Position numbers and translations under genes: made by a program. A stretch of DNA of 64,000 nt, taken from Hyphomicrobiales bacterium (GTDB lineage: Bacteria > Pseudomonadota > Alphaproteobacteria > Rhizobiales > Xanthobacteraceae). The DNA lies in NCBI GenBank assembly GCA_009377695.1, contig WHTP01000006.1, positions 1 through 64,000 of the forward strand, written 5' to 3'. Every line of letters starts with the position of its first letter. The first letter of the stretch is position 1. Below, piece by piece: positions 1,842 to 53,882 of the stretch. The notes under the pieces were generated by a model. That model made no database searches. It was not told where the DNA came from and was given only the letters and a program-made list of their open reading frames with translations.

Positions 1842-1845
1842 GACG

Positions 1846-1919
1846 AGTGTGGCGGTTCAGAAGTCCGCATCATTCTCGCGGCGAATCCGACATGCGGACT
1901 TCTGAACCTAAGCCACACT
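1846..1919. repeat. CTAGTG-type palindrome, type A (agtgtggcggttcagaagtccgcat ... atgcggacttctgaacctaagccacact)
   Basis: Direct inverted repeat; related copies near 10551, 39520 (left arm) and 46181. Confidence 0.85.
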
Positions 1920-1933
1920 CGATTCAAAGAGTT

Positions 1934-2010
1934 GCTAGTGTCCTTCGATTCCGAAGTTCGTATAAAACCTCGCTGCGAAATGGTACGAACTTCGGAATCG
2001 GGACACTAGC
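1934..2010. repeat. CTAGTG-type palindrome, type B (gctagtgtcc...ttccgaagttcg ... cgaacttcggaatcgggacactagc)
   Basis: Perfect 10-bp termini gctagtgtcc/ggacactagc; related copies at 10639 and 43996. Confidence 0.85.
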
Positions 2011-10514: not shown

Positions 10515-10550
10515 GAATCCATAAGTCGCCCGCCAAGACGCCGACAGACC

Positions 10551-10714
10551 AGTACTGCGATTCAGACCTCTGCGACATTGTTGCAGCGAGTCTGACATGC
10601 GGACGTCTGAACCAAAGCCACACTCGATTCAAAGAGTTGCTATGTCCTTCGATTCCGAAGCTCGTATACGAGGCAGTTGCGAAACCGTACGAGCTTCGGA
10701 ATCGGGACACGAGC
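10551..10714. repeat. Composite A+B CTAGTG-type palindromes (A degenerate, B at 10639-10714)
   Basis: Shares atgcggac-tctgaacc-aagccacactcgattcaaagagttgct and ttccgaagctcg/cgagcttcggaatcgggacac with the 1846-2010 block. Confidence 0.75.
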
Positions 10715-15296: not shown

Positions 15297-15871
15297 CCCG
15301 GCAGACTAACCACAAAGGCGGATCTTGACTCCAACGCCATCGAAGCCCGCTGGAGCGACACAAAAAAGGCCATCGAAAAGGTCCGCTTTTGCGGCCAATC
15401 CTCGGCTGGGCCAAAGCCGGCCTTCAAAAAGCTGCAGGATTTCGAATGCAGGATCGCGCACGAGGGTAGGAATGCTAATTTTCTTAATTTTGGCAGAAAA
15501 ATGCGCTGTTCGATTGTCGACCAATGCGGAACGCGGCCGGAGTGTTCGTACAACTACCACGCAACAGTTGCGGATGCCGCGTCAAAACGCCACTGGCTAA
15601 CCTCCCGACATAAGCAATCCAGGCCGGGCCCCTCTGGCAGCTCAACACGAGCTGCGATGTCGGACTGGACGTCAGGGAGTGGCCCGGTTGACCCCCATTC
15701 GCAAGACGCAGGAAGCGTCCAAAAATAATACGACGACGGTGTTGCACGGCTGCGCACGCCGTCGGTGAGAACGTTCGTCAACTGAGCACTCGCTCTGGCT
15801 GCTTCAATCCTGCCTGATCGTCGATTGCTTGATCGACGATTCGATCCGTTGGGAGCCAAGGAAGAGCGCTC

Positions 15872-32086: not shown

Positions 32087-32099
32087 AGGGGGCCTCTCC

Positions 32100-32130
32100 A
32101 ATCACGTTATACAAATTGTATAACGTGATT
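32100..32130. promoter_or_regulatory. 31-bp perfect palindrome, candidate TA autoregulatory operator
   Basis: aatcacgttatacaa-a-ttgtataacgtgatt, symmetric about 32115, 14 bp upstream of the antitoxin GTG start. Confidence 0.8.
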
Positions 32131-32179
32131 GAGCACCATGTTCAATCATTGTCTTACCTGCGCTAAGCCACTGGAGAAG

Positions 32180-37118: not shown

Positions 37119-39353
37119 ATGCGCGGCCCTCGCTTTGACCGCTTGATGAGTGGCGTAGCCCTGGCTCTGCCCCTGTTGGTCTTCCTAGCCATTCCCTCAT
37201 CCGACGCTCAAGCCAGTACCGAGACACCAGCGGCGATCGAATCGGCCGTTCCAATGCCGGAGAGCACGACACTCCCGCCCCCAACAGCTTCCGATGCGGC
37301 CACGCCGTCCGAAACTGAGGGTATCGGCAGTTCCACCGAACCGCCGGCCACTGTGACGGCGCCAGCCGAAAACACTGAATCCGCTCCGACCGAAGCCGCT
37401 CCCGCTGAAACCGCGACCACGCCGCCGCCAGCTGCACCTCTCGCGCCGGCAGAAACCACGACCACGACGCCGGCTGCCCAGCCTGATGCGGCGCCGTCCG
37501 ACACCGCCACCACGGCGCCGGCTGCCCAGCCTGACGCTGCGCCGTCCGATGCCGCCACCGCGGCGCCGACTGCGCAGCCCGATGCTGCGCCGGCAGAAAC
37601 CACAACCACGGCGCCGGCTGCTCAGCCTGACGCCGCGCCGGCCGAAACCACAACCGCTGCGCCGGCCGACGCGCCTCCAGTTGACCCGCTGGCGTCGCTT
37701 GATCCGGCCGACCGGCCGGTCGCCGAACAGTTGCGCGACATGCTGCCGAACGCCGACCGCACATTCGCGAGCCGCAAGGAGCGGCAGGTGGTCGAGGCGT
37801 TCTATCAGAAGCGCAATTTTGCACCGGTATGGTTCGAGCGCGGCGCACTCAGTGCGCGCACCAGTGCCGCCATCACCCGAATCCACGCGTCGGCTGCCGA
37901 CGGCCTGATCCCGGCCGAGTACAAGATTCCGGATATGGCAGCGGCGACGTCCCCGGAGGCGCAAGCCGACGCCGAACTGCGGCTCACCGCGACGCTGATC
38001 ACCTTTACGCGTCACCTGCAGGCCGGCCGCTTCCCGTTTGCCCGCATGGGCGGCGAGATCCAGATGCCGCAAGAGCCGCCGGATGTGACCGCCGCGCTCA
38101 CCAAGCTCGCGGAAGCGACCGACGTCGCCGCCGCGATCGACGAGTTCAGCCCGCCGCAACCGGGTTATCGCGCCCTCAAGGCCAAGCTCGCCGAACTCCG
38201 CGGAAACACCGGCGATGAGACGAAAATCGTGCAGATTCCGGACGGCCCGATGCTGCGGCTGGGGATGGAGGATGCGCGCGTTCCGCTGCTTCGCCAGCGG
38301 CTCCAAGTGGCGGGCGACGAGACGAACCTGCACTACGACGATGCGCTCGTCACCGCGGTCAAGGCGTACCAGAAATCCAACCGCATGAATGCGGACGGTA
38401 TCGTCGGACCGGGCACGCTACGCAGCCTCAACGGAGTTTCGGCCCCGCGCCGCGCCGACGTGATCGACATGGTCATCGCCAACATGGAGCGCTGGCGCTG
38501 GACGCCGCGCGATCTTGGCAACGCCCACGTGATGCTGAACATTCCGAACTACACCTTGCGCGTGATGCACAACGGCAAGGAGGTCTGGCAGACCCGCGTC
38601 GTCGTCGGCAAGCCGTCGACCGCGACGCCGCAGATCACCGAGACGATGAAGTTCATCACGGTCAACCCGACCTGGAACGTGCCGCCGTCGATCGTCCGTA
38701 ACGAATACCTGCCGGCGCTCGCGCAAGACCCCACCGTGCTCGCGCGCATGGGCCTTAAGGTCACCTATAGACGCGATGGCAGCGTGCACATCTACCAGCC
38801 GCCCGGCGCAGCCAACGCGCTCGGACGCCTGCGCTTCAATTTCCCGAACCGCTTCCTGGTCTACCAGCACGACACCCCGGACAAGCATCTCTTTGCTCAT
38901 GAGCGGCGCGCATACAGCCATGGCTGCATGCGGGTGCAGGACCCGGCGAAGTACGCGGAGGTATTGCTCTCGATCGCCCTGCCGAACGCGGGCTACACCG
39001 AGCAGCGCATCCGCTCGATGTTCGGCTCGGCGGAGCAAAACATCAACTTCCCGACGCCGATTCCGGTGCACATCGCCTACCAGACGGCGTTTGTCGACGG
39101 CGCCGGCGAGTTCCAGATACGCCCCGACATCTACGGTATCGATGCCAAGACCAGGAACCTGATCCGCAGCGAGCGCGGCGTGGTCGAGCCGATAGCGGAA
39201 CGCAGCCCAGTGGTTGCGAGCAACACGACGCCCGTCAGGCGCGCGCGTCCGCGTGAGCGGGAGCAGCAGCAACCGCGCACCGTGGGCTTCTTCGAAGCCC
39301 TGTTCGGCGGCTTCAGCAATGCCGCGCCGGTCCCGAAGGCACGAATCCGCTAG
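37119..39353 (+). CDS. L,D-transpeptidase (YcbB/LdtD-like) with PG-binding domain and Ala/Pro/Thr-rich N-terminal linker
   Basis: PG_binding (YQKSNRMNADGIVGPGTLRSLN); WNVPPSIVRNEYLPAL; catalytic HERRAYSHGCMRVQDP. Confidence 0.93.
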   Translation: MRGPRFDRLMSGVALALPLLVFLAIPSSDAQASTETPAAIESAVPMPESTTLPPPTASDAATPSETEGIGSSTEPPATVTAPAENTESAPTEAAPAETATTPPPAAPLAPAETTTTTPAAQPDAAPSDTATTAPAAQPDAAPSDAATAAPTAQPDAAPAETTTTAPAAQPDAAPAETTTAAPADAPPVDPLASLDPADRPVAEQLRDMLPNADRTFASRKERQVVEAFYQKRNFAPVWFERGALSARTSAAITRIHASAADGLIPAEYKIPDMAAATSPEAQADAELRLTATLITFTRHLQAGRFPFARMGGEIQMPQEPPDVTAALTKLAEATDVAAAIDEFSPPQPGYRALKAKLAELRGNTGDETKIVQIPDGPMLRLGMEDARVPLLRQRLQVAGDETNLHYDDALVTAVKAYQKSNRMNADGIVGPGTLRSLNGVSAPRRADVIDMVIANMERWRWTPRDLGNAHVMLNIPNYTLRVMHNGKEVWQTRVVVGKPSTATPQITETMKFITVNPTWNVPPSIVRNEYLPALAQDPTVLARMGLKVTYRRDGSVHIYQPPGAANALGRLRFNFPNRFLVYQHDTPDKHLFAHERRAYSHGCMRVQDPAKYAEVLLSIALPNAGYTEQRIRSMFGSAEQNINFPTPIPVHIAYQTAFVDGAGEFQIRPDIYGIDAKTRNLIRSERGVVEPIAERSPVVASNTTPVRRARPREREQQQPRTVGFFEALFGGFSNAAPVPKARIR
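37455..37670 (+). repeat. In-frame ~48-bp tandem repeats coding (A/P)AQPDAAP(S/A)(D/E)TxTxAP
   Basis: Protein repeats AAQPDAAPSDTATTAPAAQPDAAPSDAATAAPTAQPDAAPAETTTTAPAAQPDAAPAETTTAAP. Confidence 0.85.
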
Positions 39354-39354
39354 T

Positions 39355-39431
39355 CTAGCGGTCCGATTCTAACATTCGCATCCCTTCTCAGCGGGCGACT
39401 TTGCGAATGTTAGAATCAAAGGACCACTAGC
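39355..39431. repeat. CTAGTG-type palindrome, type C
   Basis: ctagcggtccgattctaacattcgc ... gcgaatgttagaatcaaaggaccactagc; copy at 43812. Confidence 0.85.
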
Positions 39432-39442
39432 AAATATAAGCT

Positions 39443-39524
39443 GCTAGTGGAGTTTTGGATTTGACATTCGCTTTGCGAGCCTGCGGTCAACGGGGGTAGC
39501 GAATGTCAAATCCACTCCACTAGT
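39443..39524. repeat. CTAGTG-type palindrome, type D
   Basis: gctagtggagttttggatttgacattcgc ... gcgaatgtcaaatccactccactag; copy at 43902. Confidence 0.85.
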
Positions 39525-39592
39525 GTGGCGGTTCAGAAGTCCGCATCGTTCTCGCTGCGAAGCGGTACGTACTTCGGAATCAGGACACGAGG
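39520..39592. repeat. Hybrid CTAGTG element: left arm of type A, right arm of type B
   Basis: ctagtgtggcggttcagaagtccgcatcgttctcgctgcgaagcggtacgtacttcggaatcaggacacgagg. Confidence 0.75.
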
Positions 39593-43778: not shown

Positions 43779-43811
43779 AACTTCACGCGATATCCCGGGC
43801 TCGTGTGGCAC

Positions 43812-43890
43812 GCTAGTGGTCCGATTCTAACATTCGTATCCCTTCTCAGCGGGCGACTTTGCGAATGTTAGCATCATAAGGACCACTAGC
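43812..43890. repeat. CTAGTG-type palindrome, type C (second copy)
   Basis: gctagtggtccgattctaacattcg ... gcgaatgttagcatcataaggaccactagc. Confidence 0.85.
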
Positions 43891-43901
43891 AAATATAAGC
43901 T

Positions 43902-43981
43902 GCTAGTGGAGTTTTGGATTTGACATTCGCTTTGGGGGTCTGCGGTCAACGGGGTAGCAAATGTCAAATCCACTCCACTAG
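43902..43981. repeat. CTAGTG-type palindrome, type D (second copy)
   Basis: gctagtggagttttggatttgacattcgc ... gcaaatgtcaaatccactccactag. Confidence 0.85.
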
Positions 43982-43995
43982 AATGCTCATGCTTG

Positions 43996-44070
43996 CCAGT
44001 GTCCATTTGAAGCCGAAGTTCGCGAGCGTCTTGCCGCACGGGTGTGCGAACTTCGGATTCGGGACACTGG
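43996..44070. repeat. CTAGTG-type palindrome, type B variant
   Basis: ccagtgtccatttgaagccgaagttcgc ... gcgaacttcggattcgggacactgg. Confidence 0.8.
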
Positions 44071-46106: not shown

Positions 46107-46180
46107 TTCACCTGCTGGGGTTCATTCGTTCCGCGCAAGCGGGAATCCAGTGTCGCAATGACCAGCAACTTATTGAATCG

Positions 46181-46255
46181 AGTGTGGCTTGGTTCAGAGG
46201 TCCGCATGTCGGACTCGCCGCGACAATGATGCGGACTTCTGAACCGCCACACTAG
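46181..46255. repeat. CTAGTG-type palindrome, type A (opposite orientation)
   Basis: agtgtggcttggttcagaggtccgcat ... atgcggacttctgaaccgccacactag. Confidence 0.85.
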
Positions 46256-53639: not shown

Positions 53640-53660
53640 GCAACGAGCGCGGTGCGCGCG

Positions 53661-53825
53661 ATTGCGCCCTCTCCCCTTGAGGGAGAGGGCAACTCAAGCA
53701 GGTCAACGGATACGATTGGGTGAGGGGGTCTCTTCACAAGAAGCATATCACCAAGAGGACCCCTCACCCTCCTCATTACGCTGAAAAGCCACGCAGCCCT
53801 CTCCCTCAAGGGGAGAGGGCGCAAT
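53661..53825. repeat. Palindromic element with 30-bp perfect terminal inverted repeats
   Basis: attgcgccctctccccttgagggagagggc (53661-53690) / gccctctccctcaaggggagagggcgcaat (53796-53825); inner gggtgagggg / cccctcaccc. Confidence 0.85.
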
Positions 53826-53882
53826 AATGCGCGCTCATTTCCGCGCGCCATTCTGACTGCAATCAGGTGCACCATCATCGCA

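Follow-up and report, generated by a model that had tools for sequence, protein, structure and literature searches.

Families of short intergenic repeats are seldom traced to a transposase, RUP of Streptococcus pneumoniae having been noted as the exception by Delihas (PMC2229807). RUP is 107 bp long, occurs in about 100 copies and has IS630-Spn1 as its proposed mover (PMC2229807). IS630 and ISY100, members of the IS630 family in the Tc1/mariner superfamily, insert into TA and duplicate it (PMC2170065), and Tenzen and Ohtsubo (1991), as cited in PMC2170065, described a preference for the TA in 5'-CTAG-3'. The Correia (NEMIS) elements of Neisseria are MITEs with a length of about 107-155 bp that carry terminal inverted repeats, have TA at their termini and duplicate their target (PMC2229807). 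REP, BIME and REPIN elements, which are associated with RAYT, are high-copy extragenic palindromes arranged in inverted pairs.

Here we compare these systems with hairpin pairs found in a window of 64,000 nucleotides, that is, the whole stretch of DNA analyzed, and in the genome of the soil bacterium to which it belongs. RUP and Correia are the nearest known kinds. Like RUP, our elements are short, gene-less and intergenic, with IS630-family-like ends and a TA in the target (PMC2229807). RUP, however, is reported as a simple 107-bp repeat, whereas our elements combine a pair of hairpin modules whose inner arms are inverted and bulged, and there are many stem families, about 451 hairpins and nesting at CTAG. 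Correia differs in sequence and host, and its two size classes result from an internal 50-bp piece rather than from two hairpin modules. With members of the IS630 family the elements share the terminal sequence and the CTAG preference, and their tip variation favors the TA duplication known from that family. They lack a transposase gene, and each of their ends is folded onto an inner arm, a feature absent from the IS ends that we examined. We conclude that the hairpin pairs are very probably non-autonomous IS630-type (Tc1/mariner superfamily) MITEs whose transposase acted in trans and is missing from the assembly as far as we could find, a reading to which we assign a probability of roughly 0.87. 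On this reading, the Xanthobacteraceae/Bradyrhizobium group has a MITE family of IS630 type that is very abundant, known in kind, new in detail and unusual in its two-hairpin design. Our search for an earlier description of this two-hairpin family covered the open-access literature, with subscription papers outside its scope, and found none.

Organization of the elements in the window

The composite at 1844-2009 consists of hairpin A (78 bp; 1844..1921, + strand), a 13-nt spacer, ATTCAAAGAGTTG (1922..1934, + strand), and hairpin B (75 bp; 1935..2009, + strand), and thus shows the two adjacent, spacer-joined hairpins of one design recognized in the preliminary description. Hairpin A provides the left outer end (CGAGTGTGGCGG...) and hairpin B the right outer end (...GGGACACTAG). 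The tip of B reads CTAGTG..CACTAG and that of A reads CGAGTG..CACTCG, its CTAG apparently having decayed to CGAG. As a single DNA strand, 1844-2009 is predicted to fold with -61.5 kcal/mol versus -20.9 +/- 2.9 kcal/mol for shuffles (z = -14). The composite had been reported to recur in decayed form, and an AB copy complete with spacer is indeed located at 10549..10713 on the + strand (A 10549-10626, spacer 10627-10639, B 10640-10713).

Two CD elements are present, with all parts on the + strand. The first comprises hairpin C (39355..39430), a 13-nt spacer, CAAATATAAGCTG (39431..39443), and hairpin D (39444..39523); the second comprises hairpin C (43813..43889), the same 13-nt spacer (43890..43902) and hairpin D (43903..43981). 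A solo A/B hybrid hairpin (39520..39591, + strand) has one CTAG in common with hairpin D of the first CD element. It joins outer arm A to outer arm B and appears to have arisen from an AB element by internal deletion; a few solo hairpins have this make-up of two outer arms, A and B, and the same apparent origin. The second CD element is adjoined by CTCGTGTGGC (43800..43809, + strand), a probable A-type outer-end remnant, and is followed by a 14-nt spacer, AATGCTCATGCTTG (43982..43995, + strand), and by the B-like hairpin G (43996..44070, + strand), which is probably the right partner of the element that took in the second CD element. A partial AB element lies inverted at 46166..46255 (- strand), with hairpin A at 46179-46255, a 13-nt spacer at 46166-46178, a CCAG tip at 46162-46165 and hairpin B missing. 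The inverted A copy had been noticed before together with part of the spacer, which turns out to be present in full and to adjoin the CCAG tip. The window contains eleven hairpins in total, at the five loci already recognized (AB; AB; CD plus A/B hybrid; CD plus G-type; A), and the former count of nine has to be revised accordingly.

A common plan with many stem families

A typical element is about 165 bp long and is built from two imperfect hairpins of 75-80 bp, inverted around a spacer of 12-14 nt. We found 112 hairpins in 60 clusters in 785 kb sampled from the same genome, mostly as inverted pairs (AB, CD, EF and others). Each pair type has its spacer, ATTCAAAGAGTTG in AB, CAAATATAAGCTG in CD and CACCAACGAGTT in EF, and further types occur in relatives. 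The stems had been described as divergent between types, with shared tips. The outer arms of all types do align, however, with the common consensus CTAGTGtccCGattccgAagTTCGya, and a single matrix fits all of them, which makes the stems homologous. Being inverted and homologous, outer arms A and B amount to terminal inverted repeats. Among 105 hairpins measured, 97 have 2 or 3 extra nt in the inner arm, and 33 of 44 paired units have both inner arms on the side of the spacer. A GCNGC-like motif is common to the hairpin loops. Among 40 AB copies the median pairwise identity is 95.2%, with the nearest neighbor mostly at 97-99%. A comparison with Rfam 15 returned no match at gathering score, only sub-threshold look-alikes of miRNA hairpins.

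One relative (G003; contigs C58, C113, C179 and C251) has its own amplified hairpin pair, CTAGTGCCCGGTTTTCGAAG with CTAGTGCCGCCGATTTGAAATTCC, built on the same two-hairpin plan. Different genomes have thus amplified different stem families.

Copy number and insertion sites

The genome containing the window (5.85 Mb in 235 contigs, about 95% complete) has 451 matches to CTAGTG-N50-80-CACTAG, the pattern of an exact-tip hairpin. The repeats are thus far from confined to the five loci of the window; confinement to them, with no insertion polymorphism in relatives, had been named in the preliminary description as a result that would tell against its proposal. The same pattern is found 95, 93, 48, 40, 1, 0 and 0 times in seven other genomes of the genus, the two zero-copy genomes being 99% and 93% complete; copy numbers of 451, 93-95, 40-48 and 0 within one genus offer a natural series on the control of a MITE burst. 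A composite search of the genome yielded at least 42 near full-length AB copies, 41 of them with 93-100% identity (40 of 426 first-look candidates were scored). In 30 aligned copies the similarity stops abruptly at CTAG, and the flanks are unrelated. The public genomes among the matches listed for the A tip are drafts labeled Xanthobacteraceae, Bradyrhizobium or Pseudolabrys, or with higher alphaproteobacterial or proteobacterial ranks. The AB element itself has no match in the plasmid collection searched.

Elements contain about half of the CTAG sites present in the sampled 785 kb and account for a large share of the intergenic hairpins, and CTAG is rare elsewhere. This rarity may explain why elements have frequently inserted into one another. 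An AB element is found inside DC at C4:36097-36426 and a CD element inside BA at C25:22428-22757. When the insert is removed together with one CTAG, the outer element is restored intact and in exact register, with 165 of 168 positions identical in the AB-in-DC case. A triple nesting, EF inside CD inside BA, is located at C8:13786-14190. At the site of the window AB element, two relatives (G001 and G007) have no element in the orthologous position, and C14:15821 and C25:68278 likewise correspond to empty sites in G001; with their diverged flanks, these orthologous sites are approximate rather than base-exact. The empty sites in relatives amount to insertion polymorphism, and the nested insertions reveal a duplicated target.

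CTAG is duplicated at insertions, and, the target being CTAG, a duplication of TA and a duplication of CTAG look the same at most sites. Among outer ends, the G inside the TA is invariant in 214 of 216, and the C, T and A outside are conserved at 87-91%, which is the pattern expected if TA is duplicated and CTAG is the preferred target. One-sided tip variants (CCAG, CTCG and CGAG) are frequent and may be attributed to decay.

Conserved pairing of the hairpin arms

We assessed arm pairing in twelve representative hairpins. Of 309 cells, 304 are paired, and compensatory change on both sides is seen at 18 of 26 stem positions, counted after the two B rows had been re-gapped by hand. The inner arms co-vary with the outer arms in every family, which reflects either selection for folding or replication-based correction of palindromes. 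Such co-variation would be expected if the hairpins were kept as functional RNA or DNA structures, for example as bidirectional terminators or RNase III sites, and if their mobility were incidental or past. Correia and ERIC hairpins affect mRNA stability (PMC10969869; PMC2229807). In addition, the elements tend to avoid long open frames: with the element removed, an open frame of at least 250 aa spans 23 of 52 element sites, whereas the share is 85% for random positions and 62% for other CTAG sites. This intergenic bias exceeds that of CTAG itself, but avoidance of genes is predicted by purifying selection alone, and correction of palindromes in the course of replication could likewise account for the similarity of the arms. 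Moreover, no T-run follows the hairpins in aligned copies, a separate GC hairpin with a T-run is found directly beside the window copy, and G001 and G007 retain the same gene pair without the element. We consider it unlikely that the hairpins are maintained for a function of this kind.

Inverted hairpin pairs with a conserved bulge and tip also resemble the design of REPINs and BIMEs, and pairing conserved through two-sided changes would suit REP/REPIN elements moved by a RAYT, a Y1 HUH transposase with single-stranded hairpins as its substrate. The repeats that belong to RAYTs, however, bear a GTAG or CGTC tag and measure 20-40 bp (PMC3733652), whereas our units have a CTAG tip, measure 75-80 bp, have no associated RAYT and end like DDE transposons, with a match to IS630 instead. 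We sought Y1 transposases in the genome itself and in six relatives. The genome yielded a sole Y1 gene, which has GTAGGGTGGGC repeats and not CTAG hairpins on its flanks. CTAG-element ends are absent from the flanks of all five Y1 loci that we examined in relatives, and G003, G004 and G005 contain elements but no Y1 match. We thus reject a RAYT/REP origin as very improbable; the RAYT flanks, which the preliminary description had proposed to inspect for CTAG tips, have GTAG repeats alongside the only such gene found. This Y1/RAYT-type transposase (L046 1360-1890; G000:C25:11251-11547) has GTAGGGTGGGCAAAGGCGC-type repeats on its flanks and points to a separate GTAG-REP/RAYT system beside the CTAG elements.

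Element ends resemble IS630 termini

IS630-family elements of relatives, about 1150-1215 bp in length (L121, L118, L131, L132, L136, L147 and others), have the sequence CTAGTGTCCtGA..C.GAAgTTCG at both ends, and the termini of many IS630 elements across the taxonomic family share the same ~26-nt sequence. L121 and L118 come from the same-genus genome G005, a draft with 90% completeness and 6% contamination; both ends of each match the outer arms, the left tip of L118 being AGAG and not CTAG. The transposases match IS630 in NCBIfam (E about 1e-85 and 1e-81). Plasmid IS copies with the same ends are found in Bradyrhizobium (B. barranii and B. guangxiense), Acidovorax, Caballeronia and Pseudomonas, and the annotation of five of the six reads IS630 family transposase. 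At the ends of the better-matching IS elements the outer-arm matrix reaches 21-37 bits, compared with a maximum of 11.9 bits in 200,000 random 26-mers. Beyond CTAG, 16-18 of 22 positions agree with an IS end in outer arms A, B, E, F and G, more than in any of 2,000 shuffles, whereas agreement in outer arms C, D and H is just 14-15 of 22, no better than in the top shuffles. One IS630 subgroup (L141-L146) has CTAGTGGATcGA ends. Families other than IS630 also insert at CTAG-like sites, and the target-site data, taken by themselves, are compatible with MITEs from a different DDE family with a CTAG/YTAR target, for instance IS5, whose tip became the same by convergence. The likeness to IS630 ends, however, continues ~20 nt past CTAG at either terminus of numerous independent IS630 elements, far more than in random sequence, and leaves little probability for such convergence.

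The elements are short, have no coding capacity, are dispersed in high copy number and end sharply, as is characteristic of MITEs. The preliminary description had proposed non-autonomous MITEs served by one type of machinery, and it is well supported in this by the dispersal, exact ends, CTAG target, nesting and empty sites and by the termini shared with IS630, which name a transposase family as a candidate for mobilization. The genome itself contains no PF13358 or IS630 transposase match, and G005 has an IS630 transposase together with 40 hairpins. Since no IS630 gene was found in the assembly, the elements appear to have been moved in trans, by an enzyme that was transient, has been lost or is unassembled. 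In the 785 kb, no two unpartnered hairpins face each other at a distance of 0.2-5 kb, as they would in an autonomous two-hairpin transposon; a named MAG contig (L264) has two outer arms at a distance of 1.1 kb as a candidate pair.

For an IS630-type MITE we envisage the following mechanism. The two outermost arms, about 26-30 nt each, would be the terminal inverted repeats bound by an IS630-family DDE transposase, which we infer to be the mover. Supplied in trans, the enzyme would cut at these ends and insert the element at the TA within CTAG. TA rather than the full CTAG would be duplicated on insertion, and the CTAG tip would hence partly represent the target site. The insert of 2-3 nt may prevent the inner arms from serving as transposon ends, in which case the pair would move as a unit.

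A plain IS630-type MITE needs its outer ends only, and the model thus leaves the co-varying inner arms unexplained, raising the question of why the ends of a DNA transposon stay folded. We can imagine, although we think it rather improbable, that the folded hairpins are a working part in addition to the outer ends. In this case the paired-hairpin architecture, with its bulge and GCNGC-like loop, would be kept by compensatory change because folding is needed for mobilization, for an RNA function or for silencing the inner ends, so that the two hairpins always move as one. The elements would then represent a distinct fold-dependent class of IS630-type element diversifying into new stem families.

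Other repeats and structures in the window

Several further features were observed in the window. Positions 1-105 contain a long CGTC-tagged palindrome, CGTCATTCCGGGG...CCCCGGAATGACG, which is similar to CGTC-tagged REPs described in PMC3733652. Contig C9 begins with the same 140 bp in reversed orientation, indicating that contigs C78 and C9 overlap at their ends. A perfect 16-bp inverted repeat, CAATCACGTTATACAA/TTGTATAACGTGATTG, with a 1-nt center is located at 32099-32131 and is possibly an operator. Nested palindromes at 53654-53832, CCCTCTCCC...GGGAGAGGG, represent another repeat type. Five 48-bp tandem repeats at 37395-37682 encode an Ala/Pro-rich segment within a 744-aa open frame (37119-39353). 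Finally, a terC RNA (RF03067) scores above gathering at 15616-15672.
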